From Fibrobacter sp. (GTDB lineage: Bacteria > Fibrobacterota > Fibrobacteria > Fibrobacterales > Fibrobacteraceae), in NCBI GenBank assembly GCA_024398955.1, contig JAKSIG010000008.1:1-64000 (forward strand): a stretch of 64,000 bases of DNA, in the 5' to 3' direction. A program made the position numbers and the translations under genes. Below, piece after piece: positions 13,158 to 20,192 of this stretch. Under the pieces are notes generated by a model, which was given only the letters and a program-made list of their open reading frames with translations, was not told the DNA's origin and made no database searches. Every line of letters starts with the position of its first letter. The stretch's first letter is position 1.

Positions 13158-14342
13158 ATGCCATTAAAAATCATACACAGCGATATTACCCTGGTTCAAG
13201 CCGATGTAATTGTAAATTCGGCAAACCCCTATCCCATTTGCGGAGGCAGTACAGAAGGCTGCATTTACGAGGCAGCCGGGTATGACGATCTTTTAGAGGC
13301 CCGCAAAGGTGTAGACTATCTGGAGGTCTGTGACATAGGCTTGACTCCGGCCTTTAAGCTTGACGCCATGTACATTATCCACGTTTCAGCACCCCGTTGG
13401 AACAACGGACACTCCGGCGAAAAGGTCGCTCTTAAACTATGCTACCAGAAGGTCCTTAGGCAGGTTCAGGAACTGGGATGTCGTTCCGTAGCATTTTCGC
13501 TCCTTTCTAGCGGAGCCTACAGATTCCCGAAGGATGTGGCCTTGACCATCGCCAAGGACGCCATCGAGGAATATCTAAAGGTAAATGCGCCTGACGATAG
13601 CGAAGAAAGCATCAACGTGATGCTGGTTCTTTACGATGACGAAGCCATCAAGGTTTCGGAGCTGCTGTTCAGCCAGATCCAGGAATATATCAACGCTCAT
13701 TATGTTCCAGAGGAACATGTGCGAAATGAACAGTCCTATCAATGTCAACAGGACTATTTCCGGGACAACGTTTTTTTTGAGAATTCATATACCGACAAAG
13801 AAGCCTGTTCTGAACAGGAAGAAGACTATAGCAAGGAACTGTTTGTCGTATGCGAGGAAAACCATTCAAAGCTTGAGTCGAAAGCCACTCAAGTCAAGAG
13901 CAAGGCTGACTTCGACAAAAGCATCAAGGAACTTCTTGATGACCCCAGGCACCTGAAACTTTTCCGCGACAGAATGAACGAACTGATGCAGGAGCGAAAC
14001 ATTTCCGCGGCGACGATCGAGAAGGACGGCAACATCGACCGCAAGCATTTCTCAAAAATCAATAGCAACAAGGTGAAACCATCCAAGGGGGCAGTCATCG
14101 CCATTGCCATTGGCCTCAAGCTAAATTATTTGGAAGCGGTCGATTTCCTCGCCTACGCAGGCTATGCGCTGTCGCCTTCCAGCAAGACCGATCTGATTGT
14201 TCAGTTCTTTATGGAAAACAAGGCTCTGTTCTACCACGAGAATCCAGACAGGAACCAGTACAAGGTGTTGAACCTGAACGACATTCTAATGCTGCACGGA
14301 GAAAACACTCTTGGTGCTGGCAAGGACATTAAGCCGATTTAG
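13158..14342 (+). CDS. Macro-domain protein with C-terminal HTH-like domain
   Basis: 394 residues. The N-terminal ~165 form a macro domain ('SDITLVQADVIVNSANPY', 'GGSTEGCIYEAAG', 'FSLLSSGAYRFPKD'), a fold that binds or removes ADP-ribose. An acidic variable linker (~180-255) follows. The C-terminal ~130 residues look like a repressor-type HTH: 'NIDRKHFSKINSNKVKPSKG' then 'FLAYAGYALSPSSKTDLIV'. I recognise this C-terminal pattern from other bacterial stress or conflict proteins but cannot name it. The VWA gene follows 110 bp downstream with its own promoter. A role in ADP-ribose signalling is inference. Confidence 0.8.
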   Translation: MPLKIIHSDITLVQADVIVNSANPYPICGGSTEGCIYEAAGYDDLLEARKGVDYLEVCDIGLTPAFKLDAMYIIHVSAPRWNNGHSGEKVALKLCYQKVLRQVQELGCRSVAFSLLSSGAYRFPKDVALTIAKDAIEEYLKVNAPDDSEESINVMLVLYDDEAIKVSELLFSQIQEYINAHYVPEEHVRNEQSYQCQQDYFRDNVFFENSYTDKEACSEQEEDYSKELFVVCEENHSKLESKATQVKSKADFDKSIKELLDDPRHLKLFRDRMNELMQERNISAATIEKDGNIDRKHFSKINSNKVKPSKGAVIAIAIGLKLNYLEAVDFLAYAGYALSPSSKTDLIVQFFMENKALFYHENPDRNQYKVLNLNDILMLHGENTLGAGKDIKPI

Positions 14343-15668: not shown

Positions 15669-15985
15669 GATGAGCCTCCTTTTCGGCCGCAGGGCCTGTT
15701 TAAAAGCGGCAACCCCGTCGCTTCATTTTCAAGGTACAAAACGCGATTTTCGTAAACCAGAATTTACGCGAAAAGTTTTGAAATTTACATTCCATCTTGG
15801 AACTGACAGCCGCTACTCTTGAAACTTGAAATTTTGTAGCGGATTTTCGCTTTGCGCAAAATTTTCAATTTCTAAATTTTATGCCCGAAAAATAGTGCGG
15901 AACGGTCCATCTTATTTTTATAAGGATTGCATTTTGGTTCTGCAGTTTTTATAAAAAATTTTGGACACGCAAAAAAGGATTCACA
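15669..15985. other. Intergenic region, no gene seen
   Basis: 317 bp between divergent genes, very AT-rich from 15720 onward. It should contain both promoters, but none is clear enough to call. AAGGA at 15974-15978 is the ribosome-binding site for the deaminase gene. Confidence 0.4.
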
Positions 15986-17305
15986 ATGGGTATCGTTATC
16001 AAGAACACGCTGGCAATTGTACCAGTCGCAGCAACCGCTGGTGCGAACGGCAACAAGGACGAAGTCAGGGAAACCTCCATCTATATCGAAGGCGACAAGA
16101 TCGTGGCCATTGGCGCAGAGCCCGCAGGTTTCAAGGCCGACAAGGTCATCGACGGAACTGACAAACTGGCTATTCCTGGTCTCGTGAATTGCCATACCCA
16201 TTCCTACATGAGCTTTATGCGCAACGTGGCCGACGACCTTTCCTTTATGGATTGGCTGTTCGGGACCATCGATCCCATCGAACAGAAGATGACCGACGAG
16301 GACACCTACTGGGGCGCTTGCCTTGCCATCATCGAAATGATGAAGAGCGGCACCACCTGCTTTAACGACATGATGATGAACATCAAGCAGACTACCAGGG
16401 CCATCAAGGAATCGGGCATGCGTGCCGTCATGTGCCGCGGCCTCGTTGGCAGCGCCGAAGACGACGGCGGACGTATCCAACAGACTTACGACGAAATGGA
16501 ATTCTGCAAGGACTGCGACCGCATTACCTTCAAGTTCGGCCCCCACGCTCCCTACACCTGCACCGAGGATTATTTCCGTCGCGTTTCCGACGAAGCCAAG
16601 AAGGCGGGCATCGGCATTCACGTGCATCTTTCCGAAAGCGTTGCCGAAATCCAGGGCACCCAGGAGAAGTACGGCTACTCCCCCATCGTCATGGCCGACA
16701 AGAACGGACTCTTCGACGTTCCCTGCATTGCCGCCCACTGCGTCCAGGTGGATGACGCCGACATGGAAATCATGGCAAAGAAGAACGTTTCCGTTGTCTC
16801 TAACCCGGCAAGCAATATGAAGCTGGGTAACGGCTTCGCCCCTGTTCCCGAAATGATGGCCAAGGGCATCAACGTGTGCCTGGGTACCGACGGCGCCGCA
16901 AGCAACAACTCCCTGAACATGTTCCACGAAATGAGCCTCATGGCCTTGATCCACAAGGGTACCCACAAGAGCCCCCAGTGCGTAAGCGCCCGCGACGTGT
17001 TCCGCATGGCCACCCTCAATGGCGCCAAGGCCCTCTGCCTGGAAGACAAGATCGGTTCCCTGGAAGTAGGCAAGAAGGCAGACATCGCTATCCTTGATTT
17101 GAACAATCCTTCCCTGATGCCCAAGAACAACCTGATCGCAGGCCTCTCCTATTCCGCCAACGGTTCCGAAGTGGACACCGTGATTATCGACGGTAAGGTG
17201 ACCATGGAAGGCCGCAAGGTTCTGACCCTCGATGAAAAGCTTGTCTACCAGAAGGTGAACGAAATCATCAAGCGCATGGGCCTGGAAAATAAGGATTACG
17301 TTTAA
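15986..17305 (+). CDS. 5-methylthioadenosine/S-adenosylhomocysteine deaminase
   Basis: A 439-residue amidohydrolase. The metal-binding HxH is in 'GLVNCHTHSYMSF' (His70, His72), further ligands in 'IHVHLSES' and 'AAHCVQVDD', and the catalytic Asp in 'CLGTDGAASNNSLNMF', which is the pattern of the MTA/SAH deaminase (MtaD/DadD) family. It would convert S-adenosylhomocysteine to S-inosylhomocysteine plus ammonia in the cytoplasm. The next gene encodes an AhcY-family hydrolase with an altered substrate motif, which makes a two-step deaminate-then-hydrolyse route likely. Chlorohydrolase-like activity on other purines cannot be excluded. Confidence 0.88.
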   Translation: MGIVIKNTLAIVPVAATAGANGNKDEVRETSIYIEGDKIVAIGAEPAGFKADKVIDGTDKLAIPGLVNCHTHSYMSFMRNVADDLSFMDWLFGTIDPIEQKMTDEDTYWGACLAIIEMMKSGTTCFNDMMMNIKQTTRAIKESGMRAVMCRGLVGSAEDDGGRIQQTYDEMEFCKDCDRITFKFGPHAPYTCTEDYFRRVSDEAKKAGIGIHVHLSESVAEIQGTQEKYGYSPIVMADKNGLFDVPCIAAHCVQVDDADMEIMAKKNVSVVSNPASNMKLGNGFAPVPEMMAKGINVCLGTDGAASNNSLNMFHEMSLMALIHKGTHKSPQCVSARDVFRMATLNGAKALCLEDKIGSLEVGKKADIAILDLNNPSLMPKNNLIAGLSYSANGSEVDTVIIDGKVTMEGRKVLTLDEKLVYQKVNEIIKRMGLENKDYV

Positions 17306-17325
17306 ATTTTTATTTTTGAAAAAAC

Positions 17326-17424
17326 GGATGATAGGACAGACGACCATCCCTAAAAATTCGGCTGGCCCGTGGCGTAGTGCCGCGGTGATAACACAAACCA
17401 AATAGGGTTCCGCACGGAACTCTA
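17326..17424 (+). promoter_or_regulatory. Structured 5' leader / candidate riboswitch before the AhcY-family gene
   Basis: Three hairpins lie between the deaminase stop and the next start. Hairpin 1 is GGATG...CATCC (17326-17349). Hairpin 2 is CCGTGGC-gtagt-GCCGCGG (17367-17385). Hairpin 3 is a 9-bp stem TAGGGTTCC-gcac-GGAACTCTA (17403-17424), ending 6 nt before the AAAGGAAAA ribosome-binding site. The sequence does not match the SAM or SAH riboswitch consensus patterns I know. Its position upstream of a methyl-cycle gene suggests ligand or translational control. Confidence 0.5.
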
Positions 17425-17441
17425 CCTTAAAGGAAAATAAT

Positions 17442-18695
17442 ATGGCAAGTGAAATCAGAGACATTAGCCTGGCCGAATCTGGCGAACGTAAACTGGAATG
17501 GGTTCACCGTAACTGCAGCCTTCTTGGCATGCTGAAGGAAGAATTCGAAAAGACCAAGCCCTTCGCCGGCAAGAAGATTGCACTCTCCGTCCATCTGGAA
17601 GCAAAGACTGGTTACCTGTGCCAGGTGCTGAAGGCCGGCGGTGCAGAAATGTACGTAACCGGATCCAACCCGCTTTCTACCCAGGATGACGTTGCTGCCG
17701 CCCTCGTGAAGGAAGGCATGGAAGTTCACGCCTGGTACGATGCTACCAACGAAGAATATGAAAGCCACATCCGTCACACTCTGCAGTGCGGCCCCAACAT
17801 CATTATCGATGACGGTGGCGACCTGGTGAACATGGTCCACAACGAAATGCCGGAACTCATCCCCAACATTATCGGCGGCTGCGAAGAAACCACCACCGGT
17901 ATCATCCGCCTGGAAGCCATGAACAAGGCCGGCAAGCTGATGTTCCCCATGGTTCGCGTGAACAACGCCGACTGTAAGCATCTCTTTGATAACCGCTACG
18001 GTACCGGTCAGTCCGTATGGGACGGCATCAACCGTACTACCAACCTGATCGTGGCTGGCAAGCAGGTTGTTGTAGCTGGCTACGGCTGGTGCGGTAAGGG
18101 TACCGCCATGCGCGCCAAGGGCCTCGGCGCCCGCGTCATCGTCACCGAAGTGGATCCGGTGAAGGCTATCGAAGCCGTAATGGACGGCTTTGACGTAATG
18201 CCCATGCGCGAAGCTGCAAAGATCGGCGACTTCTTCGTGACCGTTACCGGTTGCGACGGCGTTATCGACGCAGAAGATCTTTCTGTAATGAAGGACGGCG
18301 CCATCCTCGCCAACGCCGGTCACTTCGACTGCGAAATTGACGTGGCATGGCTGAAGAAGAACGCCGTGGAAATCCGTGAACAGCGCAAGAACATCATGGG
18401 CTACAAGCTGCCCACCGGCCAGTGGGTATTCGTCCTGGGCGAAGGCCGCCTGGTGAACCTTGCCTGCGGCGACGGCCATCCGGCAGAAATCATGGACATG
18501 AGCTTTGCCATCCAGGCCCTTTCCGCAAAGTACCTGGTGGAACACGCCGGCGAACTGAAGGAAAAGATCATCGACGTTCCTCGCGAAGTGGACCACGAAG
18601 TGGCCCTCAAGAAGCTGAAATTCCTAGGCAAGGAAATCGACGTCTTGACTGCCGAGCAGGAAAAGTACCTGCACTCCTACAACCTGGACGTGTAA
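17442..18695 (+). CDS. AhcY-family hydrolase, probable S-inosylhomocysteine hydrolase
   Basis: This 417-residue protein aligns with adenosylhomocysteinase throughout. It has the NAD-binding 'GYGWCGKGTAMRAKGLGARV', the substrate region 'NRYGTGQSVWDGINRTTN', and the C-terminal 'DHEVALKKLKFLG' and 'KYLHSYNLDV'. In true SAH hydrolases the adenine-recognition motif is HxTxE/Q. Here it is HLEAK (His51, Glu53, Lys55), the HxExK form I recall from the archaeal S-inosylhomocysteine hydrolase (M. jannaschii MJ1388). With the SAH deaminase directly upstream, S-inosylhomocysteine is the likelier substrate. Most pipelines would call it ahcY. Confidence 0.85.
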   Translation: MASEIRDISLAESGERKLEWVHRNCSLLGMLKEEFEKTKPFAGKKIALSVHLEAKTGYLCQVLKAGGAEMYVTGSNPLSTQDDVAAALVKEGMEVHAWYDATNEEYESHIRHTLQCGPNIIIDDGGDLVNMVHNEMPELIPNIIGGCEETTTGIIRLEAMNKAGKLMFPMVRVNNADCKHLFDNRYGTGQSVWDGINRTTNLIVAGKQVVVAGYGWCGKGTAMRAKGLGARVIVTEVDPVKAIEAVMDGFDVMPMREAAKIGDFFVTVTGCDGVIDAEDLSVMKDGAILANAGHFDCEIDVAWLKKNAVEIREQRKNIMGYKLPTGQWVFVLGEGRLVNLACGDGHPAEIMDMSFAIQALSAKYLVEHAGELKEKIIDVPREVDHEVALKKLKFLGKEIDVLTAEQEKYLHSYNLDV

Positions 18696-18707: not shown

Positions 18708-18736
18708 AAGGCGGGGCCTACGCCTCGCCTTTTTGC
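18708..18736 (+). terminator. Rho-independent terminator
   Basis: AAGGCGGGGC-ctac-GCCTCGCCTT followed by TTTGCTTTC. The stem sequence is the same as in the terminator at 20239-20268. Confidence 0.8.
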
Positions 18737-18767: not shown

Positions 18768-20192
18768 ATGTTCGATTTCCTCCACTCCATCATTACGACA
18801 CTGAATGACTTCCTGTATCAGCCTTTCATTGTCCCCCTGTTCCTGCTGGTAGCGGGTATCTACCTTTCCATTCGCATGGGATTCCCCCAGCTGCGATTGC
18901 TGATCGAAACATTGCGCGTGGCTCGTGAAAAGCCTCTGCAGGAAAGCGGGATTTCATCCTTTGGCGCATTGATGGTTTCTACCGCTTCTCGCGTTGGTAC
19001 AGGAAACATCGTTGGCGTTTCTTCGGCCATTTGCCTTGGCGGCCCCGGCGCCGTTTTCTGGATGTGGCTTATCGCCATTCTTGGTGCAGCCTCCGCATTT
19101 GTGGAATCCACCCTGGCACAGATTTACAAGCGCGAAGATTTAGTGACGGGACATTCCTACGGTGGCCCCTCCTACTACATTCAGACTGCATTGGGACAGC
19201 GCTGGCTGGGCATCATCTTCTCGGGCTTTGTTCTGCTGACTTATGTGGTGGGCTACAACCTGCTTGCTTCCTACAACATCCAGACCTCCCTTTCCAACTA
19301 CAATTTCTATAGCGAATCCTCCACGCCCATCATCGTGGGCATTGTGATGGCGGCCCTTTTTGGTGTCTGCATTTTCGGTGGCGCCAAGAAGCTCACCAGC
19401 ATCACCAGCTACATGGTTCCCACCATGGGCGTTATCTATGTGCTGGTAGCCCTTGGCATTATTCTCTTTAACATCGCCAATGTTCCCGCCATGTTTATGA
19501 TGATCTTCAAGGATGCCTTCAGCTTTGACGCAGGAGCAGGTGGCATTGCAGGAAGCTGCATCATGTATGGTATCAAGCGCGGTCTTTATTCCAACGAAGC
19601 GGGCATGGGTTCTGCACCTAACGCCAGCGCCAGTGCCAGCGTCTCTCACCCGGTAAAGCAGGGTCTGATGCAGTCCTTCTCCGTATTCCTGGATACACTC
19701 ATCATCTGCTCTGCAACGGCATTGATGTGCCTTTCCTGCGGCGTAACACCCACTGCAGAACGTTCCGGAATCCTTTATGTCCAGGAATCCCTGAAGGCTG
19801 TGATGGGCAATGGTGGCGCCGTTTTCATTACCCTTTCCATTATGCTGTTCGGCTTTACCACACTGATCGGTAACTACTACTACACCGAAGGCTGCCTCCG
19901 CTTTATCATGAACCGTCGCCCCGGCAAGACCTCCATTACGGTGTTCCGCATCATCGCGGTAATTATCGTTTTCATCGGAGCGATTTCCAGTGCCGCCTTC
20001 GCCTGGGATACAGCTGACCTTTGCCAGGCCCTGATGGTCATCGTGAACATTCCTGTAATCATGATTCTTTCTCCCATCGCCATCAAGGCCCTCAAGAATT
20101 ATACGGACCAGAAGAAGAAGGGAGTGGAGCCTGTCTACATCGCCAAGGAATGTGGCGTAAAGCAGCCCACCGATTTCTGGAACGCCGATTAA
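18768..20192 (+). CDS. Sodium:amino acid symporter, AGCS family
   Basis: A 474-residue inner-membrane protein with about ten or eleven hydrophobic helices. The family signatures are present: 'SRVGTGNIVGVSSAICLGGP' and the later 'YSNEAGMGSAPNASASA'. AGCS proteins import alanine, glycine or related amino acids with Na+. It follows the methyl-cycle genes but has a terminator before it, so co-regulation is uncertain. Length is normal. The exact substrate cannot be read from sequence. Confidence 0.9.
   Translation: MFDFLHSIITTLNDFLYQPFIVPLFLLVAGIYLSIRMGFPQLRLLIETLRVAREKPLQESGISSFGALMVSTASRVGTGNIVGVSSAICLGGPGAVFWMWLIAILGAASAFVESTLAQIYKREDLVTGHSYGGPSYYIQTALGQRWLGIIFSGFVLLTYVVGYNLLASYNIQTSLSNYNFYSESSTPIIVGIVMAALFGVCIFGGAKKLTSITSYMVPTMGVIYVLVALGIILFNIANVPAMFMMIFKDAFSFDAGAGGIAGSCIMYGIKRGLYSNEAGMGSAPNASASASVSHPVKQGLMQSFSVFLDTLIICSATALMCLSCGVTPTAERSGILYVQESLKAVMGNGGAVFITLSIMLFGFTTLIGNYYYTEGCLRFIMNRRPGKTSITVFRIIAVIIVFIGAISSAAFAWDTADLCQALMVIVNIPVIMILSPIAIKALKNYTDQKKKGVEPVYIAKECGVKQPTDFWNAD

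Follow-up and report, generated by a model that had tools for sequence, protein, structure and literature searches.

The deaminase-ahcY locus and its leader

The window, meaning the whole 64,000-nucleotide stretch that was analysed, carries a pair of forward-strand genes, a deaminase and an adenosylhomocysteinase (ahcY). A gap of 136 nt (17306-17441) separates the stop of the deaminase ORF (15986-17305) from the ahcY ORF (17442-18695). Upstream of this pair lies a protein gene (13158-14342), the N-terminus of whose product presumably resembles a macro domain. Between ahcY and a downstream gene for an AgcS-type amino acid carrier (18768-20192) there is a terminator-like hairpin (18709-18725). 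An antisense open frame of 530 aa (15872-17464, - strand) spans the deaminase gene and the entire leader, which is probably an effect of codon usage. The features discussed below are:

15986-17305, + strand: deaminase of the MTA/SAH (5'-deoxyadenosine) deaminase type, first gene of the pair
17326-17349, + strand: P1, in which 17326-17330 pairs with 17345-17349 around loop 17331-17344, AUAGGACAGACGAC
17337-17343, + strand: hypothetical P2 segment CAGACGA of the P1 loop, which could pair with the tail at 17358-17364
17352-17365, + strand: conserved tail AAAAAUUCGGCUGG, of which 17356-17365 is the 5' strand of P3
17367-17385, + strand: hairpin 2, a non-conserved insertion, missing in genomes G036 and G076 of the same genus
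17386-17399, + strand: spacer UGAUAACACAAACC, conserved in all four element-carrying genomes of the genus
17403-17424, + strand: hairpin 3 (9 bp), a non-conserved insertion, missing in G076 and of other sequence in G036
17429-17434, + strand: ribosome-binding site AAAGGA, inside the loop closed by P3
17442-18695, + strand: ahcY, adenosylhomocysteinase family, HxExK type with the motif HLEAK in the ORF
17448-17465, + strand: codons 3-8, AGUGAAAUCAGAGACAUU, with synonymous-site constraint in element-bearing genes
17469-17478, + strand: 3' strand of P3 in codons 10-13, pairing with 17356-17365

The best solved relatives of the deaminase were 4f0r, an MTA/SAH deaminase, and TM0936, and related NCBIfam models matched it with scores below their cut-offs. 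For the ahcY product, the best solved match was 7r3a, an SIH hydrolase. Hydrolases of the HxExK type are described as preferring S-inosylhomocysteine, and the HxExK signature together with a deaminase in the genome is given as the criterion for an SIH-preferring hydrolase (PMC10978960). Both are found here, as HLEAK in the ahcY ORF and as the adjoining deaminase gene, and the window's enzyme is expected to prefer S-inosylhomocysteine.

The original prediction described the gap as a structured leader of three hairpins, and all three can indeed be read in the 136 nt: hairpin 1 as GGAUG/CAUCC (17326-17330/17345-17349), hairpin 2 as CCGUGGC/GCCGCGG (17367-17373/17379-17385), and hairpin 3 as a 9-bp stem (17403-17411/17416-17424) a few nucleotides 5' of the ribosome-binding site. 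The minimum free energy fold of the gap alone contained hairpins 2 and 3 and lacked hairpin 1, and was mildly better than chance (z -1.78, with 10 of 200 shuffles as good). Including 49 nt of coding sequence gave a z of -3.10, with none of 200 shuffles as good, and a fold with three hairpins and a long-range helix into the coding sequence.

The three-hairpin architecture did not hold up among relatives. Besides the window's genome, three genomes of the genus carry the element, and two of these lack hairpin 2 and have hairpin 3 either absent or replaced. The spacer block GTGAYAACACWAACC and everything from AAAGGAAAAT to codon 13 are, like the element itself, near-identical in the four genomes. 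Across relatives, TTCGGC and the ATG lie 27 to 148 nt apart, and this spacer is variable, with hairpins 2 and 3 as insertions in it. The third stem, absent in G076 and different in G036, is therefore not the conserved control device.

An element that spans the ahcY start codon

The conserved element consists of the P1 hairpin with an almost fixed loop of 14 nt, followed by AAAAAUUCGGCUG. In the window, an outer pair (A17324-U17351) extends P1 beyond the unpaired C17325 and C17350. The upstream regions of many relatives share the pattern AGTGATG-ATAGGACAGACGAC-CATCACT-ATAATAAAAAT-TCGGCTG, of which the window version is ACGGATG-ATAGGACAGACGAC-CATCCCT-AAAAATTCGGCTG. While the loop is almost invariant, the arms vary with compensatory changes: one pair occurs as T-A, G-C and C-G, and another changes from A-T to T-A. 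The P1 covariation score in alignment A3 was 0.150 versus 0.036 in shuffles, none of 500 being as high. In the wider alignment A5, four of seven P1 pairs had changes on both sides, and the covariation score was 0.169 versus 0.052 in shuffles (0 of 500 as high) and at most 0.055 in slid controls. Three P2 pairs were one column off in the A5 run and enter its whole-structure scores; only its P1 and CGA/UCG lines count, and the A3 run has the correct brackets on a smaller alignment.

Collecting the upstream regions of HxExK hydrolase genes, as the original prediction had proposed, revealed a conserved RNA structure with covariation. Hairpin 1 of the prediction is conserved in related species and hairpins 2 and 3 are not. 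A covarying, conserved RNA structure in a leader, which is a general criterion for riboswitches, is present here. Rfam searches of the window, of six loci and of two short leaders, run at the gathering threshold and at looser ones, returned no family for the element, and elsewhere matched one tRNA in the window and gave unrelated weak matches. We found no description of the element in the literature consulted; the 224 candidate RNAs listed in 2017 were covered as far as Rfam includes them.

We compared ahcY genes with and without the element. Genes were included at 70% identity or more, with a match that began no later than residue 5 and ended no earlier than residue 400, and identical coding sequences were merged. 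Genes were called element-bearing if AAAAATTCGGC occurred within 200, 220 or 250 nt upstream, in three successive sets, which gave 33 genes with and 62 without the element at 200 nt, 33 and 61 at 220 nt, and 46 and 61 at 250 nt. The truncated locus L097 was counted in the 33/62 set and left out of the other two. Thirteen of the 46 element-bearing genes were added by the covariance model itself after the first test. The element-less genes are not an unbiased sample because they were taken from the best 80 of at least 587 confirmed loci.

The original prediction overlooked that the conserved part runs into the coding sequence. Codons 11-13 contain GCCGAAU, the complement of AUUCGGC in the tail, and the resulting helix, P3, encloses the ribosome-binding site and the start codon. 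Pairs 1-7 of P3 are kept in all 46 element-bearing genes, with 11 G-U wobble cells and none broken; among the element-less genes (from the best 80 of at least 587 loci), the sequence class that permits P3 is found in 18 of 61. The duplex energy had a median of -14.6 (range -17.2 to -8.6) in element-bearing genes, compared with -6.7 in element-less genes and -5.1 in 598 other windows of the element-bearing genes. The weakest of the P3 energies was reached by 24 of the 61 element-less genes, again from the best 80 of at least 587 loci, and by 39 of the 598 other windows. Mean pair probability of P3 exceeded 0.5 in 41 of 46 genes (0.99 in the window), and in the other five P3 was not the dominant fold.

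Classical compensatory changes in P3 were few. In locus L153 a tail base changes from U to G and codon 10 has C opposite, and pair 10 alternates between A-U and G-C, but pairs 8 and 10 did not beat shuffles (p 0.17 and 0.07; 33 genes). Counted on the tree, 4.3 of 11 independent pairs were with P3 and 0.0 against it (median p 0.125, not significant). The case for P3 therefore draws less on classical covariation than on three other features: the pairing is conserved, it changes only by wobbles, and most element-less genes lack it.

Codons 3-8 (AGT GAA ATC AGA GAC ATT) and 11-12 (GCC GAA) are unusually constant in element-bearing genes. Synonymous changes were counted on a tree built without the codons under test. 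In the 46 element-bearing genes, synonymous changes at codons 3-12 amounted to 0.40 of the number expected from the amino acids encoded there. Of 383 windows scored, those with the six lowest values all begin at codons 2-7, and the lowest window without overlap reached 0.74. The corresponding value in the 61 element-less genes (from the best 80 of at least 587 loci) was 0.87, with a lowest window of 0.78. An earlier run with 33 element-bearing genes gave a like picture. Within the element-bearing genes, Glu4 had no synonymous changes where 11.2 were expected, and Ala11 had 2 where 16.6 were expected. In element-less genes, too, Arg6 and Ile5 rank with the least changed residues of their kind, so part of the constancy of the start region is not specific to the element. 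Selection at synonymous sites of the coding half is confined to genes that have the leader element. The continuation of the element into the ahcY coding sequence is new here.

Locus L037 (2960-3001) has a truncated element, in which the 5' arm of P1 and the loop up to ACAGACG directly join GGAGG. Its coding sequence retains codons of the conserved kind, which would fit a recent loss of the element.

Two further pairings were considered. P2 would join the loop segment CAGACGA to the tail UCGGCUG, which is complementary at six of seven positions, and would exclude P3; it is a possible competing state. Its CGA/UCG core is retained in the divergent loci L153 and L154, and its energy was not better than that of shuffled loops, 34% of which were as good. 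Among the mutually exclusive folds expected of a riboswitch, P3 has support here and P2 does not. Linker length tracks the length of P1, with 7 bp and 11 nt in 38 of 46 genes and 5-6 bp and 7-9 nt in the remaining 8, a relation that fits a linker crossing P1 and that rests on few lineages. P4 may form in a lineage-specific way between the spacer at 17386-17399 and codons 2-5. Taken as the spacer with codons 2-9, it had a mean z of -1.19 over the 46 genes against mononucleotide shuffles. Since one clade has a strong P4 and others lack it, we do not claim it as general.

Distribution and probable horizontal transfer

We searched for the element with covariance models R1 and R2 and took matches of 33 bits or more as strong. 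The genome sets behind the following counts overlap. Within the window's genus, 4 of 61 genomes had strong matches, as did 17 of 50 genomes holding relatives (18 with one weak match). A draw from the family Lachnospiraceae gave 12 of 397 genomes at 33 bits or more, or 21 when nine weaker matches are included. At the level of the order the motif was present in 3 of 392 genomes, none additional to the members found otherwise, and two single genera had it in 1 of 1 and 2 of 6 genomes. Near relatives carried the element in 21 of 324 and 6 of 325 genomes. A draw of 259 genomes from other Bacillota contained the motif once, namely in the centre genome itself.

Every strong match whose flanks we examined lies directly upstream of ahcY, and no other gene was found in this position. 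There is one element per genome, except in G867, which has a second identical copy on another contig. Matches of the models below 28 bits (L119-L124, L142, L143 and L155-L163) were dismissed as noise, all 17 being without an adjoining ahcY. Two weak matches in element-carrying genomes, at G000:C93:5535-5584 (20.7 bits) and G009:C18:4496-4547 (22 bits), are possibly due to chance. A pattern scan of viral contigs yielded a single match (L165), which lacks the P1 partner and was taken as chance.

The HxExK hydrolase of the window was found in 3 of 37 genomes of the genus (G000 included) at 98-100% identity, and most of the other genomes have a different hydrolase type that is about 44% identical. 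This usual hydrolase was not found in G000, G009 and G036, which suggests that it was replaced there by a horizontally acquired HxExK enzyme. The nearest hydrolase relatives outside the genus, among the matches listed, were mostly from Lachnospiraceae (73-87% identity). Placed on a 94-gene ahcY tree, the element has a scattered distribution, with 15 changes, of which 11 are forced by supported branches. The same four of 61 genomes that carry the element also have the deaminase form at 95-100% identity, so that enzyme, deaminase and leader appear to have been acquired together by horizontal transfer. The source was most likely Lachnospiraceae-like bacteria. In the ahcY tree, the four genes of the genus stand beside one gene labelled Oscillospiraceae that has no element.

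Related RNA classes and possible function

The element resembles the SAM/SAH riboswitch (RF01727) in its small P1 hairpin, conserved loop and 3' tail, and in its presumed translational control of the methyl cycle. In that riboswitch the loop is described as pairing with the 3' tail in an H-type pseudoknot (PMC7367207). Unlike RF01727, which belongs to Rhodobacterales, our element is found in Lachnospiraceae and the window's genus, lies upstream of ahcY rather than metK, and has a tail that pairs with codons 10-13 rather than with the loop through a Shine-Dalgarno sequence. A pseudoknot of that kind is not supported, as UCGGCUG is no Shine-Dalgarno sequence and loop-tail pairing is at the level of shuffles. 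Searches at E ≤10 did not list the RF01727 model for the leader of the window, for L040 or for L153, and searches at E ≤1 did not list it for any of six loci.

With the SAH riboswitch, whose accession we take to be RF01057, the element shares its position upstream of ahcY. The covariance model of that class gave no match in the window leader or the relatives' loci, and its architecture and consensus presumably differ from those of the element. The SAH riboswitch controls ahcY, and the regulons described are proteobacterial (PMC4239095). The SAM-Chlorobi motif (RF01724) is an orphan candidate leader of metK and ahcY operons in one phylum, for which preliminary in-line probing is reported to have shown no SAM or SAH binding (PMC2864571). 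Our element differs from it in having no Rfam match to it, in occurring in another phylum and in not having metK as a target. Compact pseudoknots such as SAM-II and preQ1-I likewise combine one hairpin, an A-rich linker and a short 3' strand; in the element, linker length follows P1 length, as it would if the linker crossed P1. Unlike them, the element has a pseudoknot strand without energy support and a conserved segment inside the coding sequence; Rfam matched it to neither class, and its sequence is, we assume, unrelated to theirs. The original statement that the leader resembles no known SAM or SAH class thus agrees with the Rfam results.

We conclude that the element is a real structured RNA, without an Rfam family, that straddles the start of ahcY. 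It is shared with unrelated gut bacteria and probably switches ahcY translation on or off. At a probability of roughly 0.55, we read it as an RNA that regulates the translation of ahcY in cis, and most likely as a riboswitch of the SAH deaminase/SIH hydrolase route; a riboswitch function is plausible. Of the methyl-cycle riboswitch originally proposed, the conserved, covarying RNA outside Rfam at HxExK hydrolase genes survives, and the three-hairpin anatomy does not. P3 would lower translation initiation of ahcY, and a small molecule bound at the P1 loop, the linker and the region of codons 3-8 would decide whether P3 forms, the pseudoknot between P1 loop and tail being the natural state to compete with it. 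The likeliest ligands would be SAH or SIH, switching ahcY on as its substrate accumulates, a first guess based on the HxExK type, the match to the SIH hydrolase 7r3a and the adjoining MTA/SAH-type deaminase.

More tentatively, the element could be a new riboswitch class of this route, possibly the first for S-inosylhomocysteine or inosine, with conserved parts on both sides of the start codon, about ten codons serving in sensor or switch, and a history of moving between phyla with its enzyme. If the main reading is right, the methyl cycle of gut bacteria would have a regulatory RNA family that is in no catalogue and belongs to the little-studied S-inosylhomocysteine route. The conserved leader recruits coding sequence as a partner, which is seen as synonymous constraint and which searches of intergenic regions only would partly miss. 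Since the element is short and nearly fixed in sequence, ligand tests would be simple.

The same RNA could instead be bound by a protein without any small molecule, either an RNA-binding regulator or the enzyme as its own regulator. We consider this unlikely but worth weighing: one element per genome at one gene, with a near-invariant loop, fits a protein-binding operator, and its co-occurrence with ahcY in a second phylum would be consistent with the ahcY product itself as the ligand, but no partner gene was identified and we know of no SAHH that regulates itself by binding RNA. Less likely still is a fixed translational brake or stability structure, in which P1 and P3 hold expression at a constant level or act as a temperature-responsive structure, with no specific ligand. 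P3 alone encloses the start region, and with a TTCGGC-to-ATG spacing of 27 to 148 nt only the pairing seems to matter; such a brake, however, would not need the near-invariant 14-nt loop, the AAAAAU linker or the conserved codons 3-8.

Two further readings fare worse. The arms of P1 form an inverted repeat, and L039 has a promoter-like site just upstream of the element, as might be expected of a DNA operator for a transcription factor. We rejected this as very improbable, since the arms vary with compensation around a nearly fixed spacer, whereas an operator would be expected to show the opposite, and the constraint extends past the start codon as P3. A leader peptide (MIGQTT...) encoded by an upstream ORF starting inside P1 is hardly credible, even though the P1 position is ATG in 44 of 46 genes and TTG in 2, and MIGQTT or MTGQTT is common. 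There is no evident Shine-Dalgarno sequence upstream, the frame relative to ahcY is spread 13/17/16, and the frame stops before the ahcY ATG in 25 genes, after it in 12 and not at all in 9. The peptides of L153 and L154 differ, and indels in the loop and linker are not multiples of 3. With neither frame nor stop conserved in relatives, this candidate was also rejected. The short ORF of the window, MIGQTTIPKNSAGPWRSAAVITQTK, lies at 17328-17405 and has its start inside P1.
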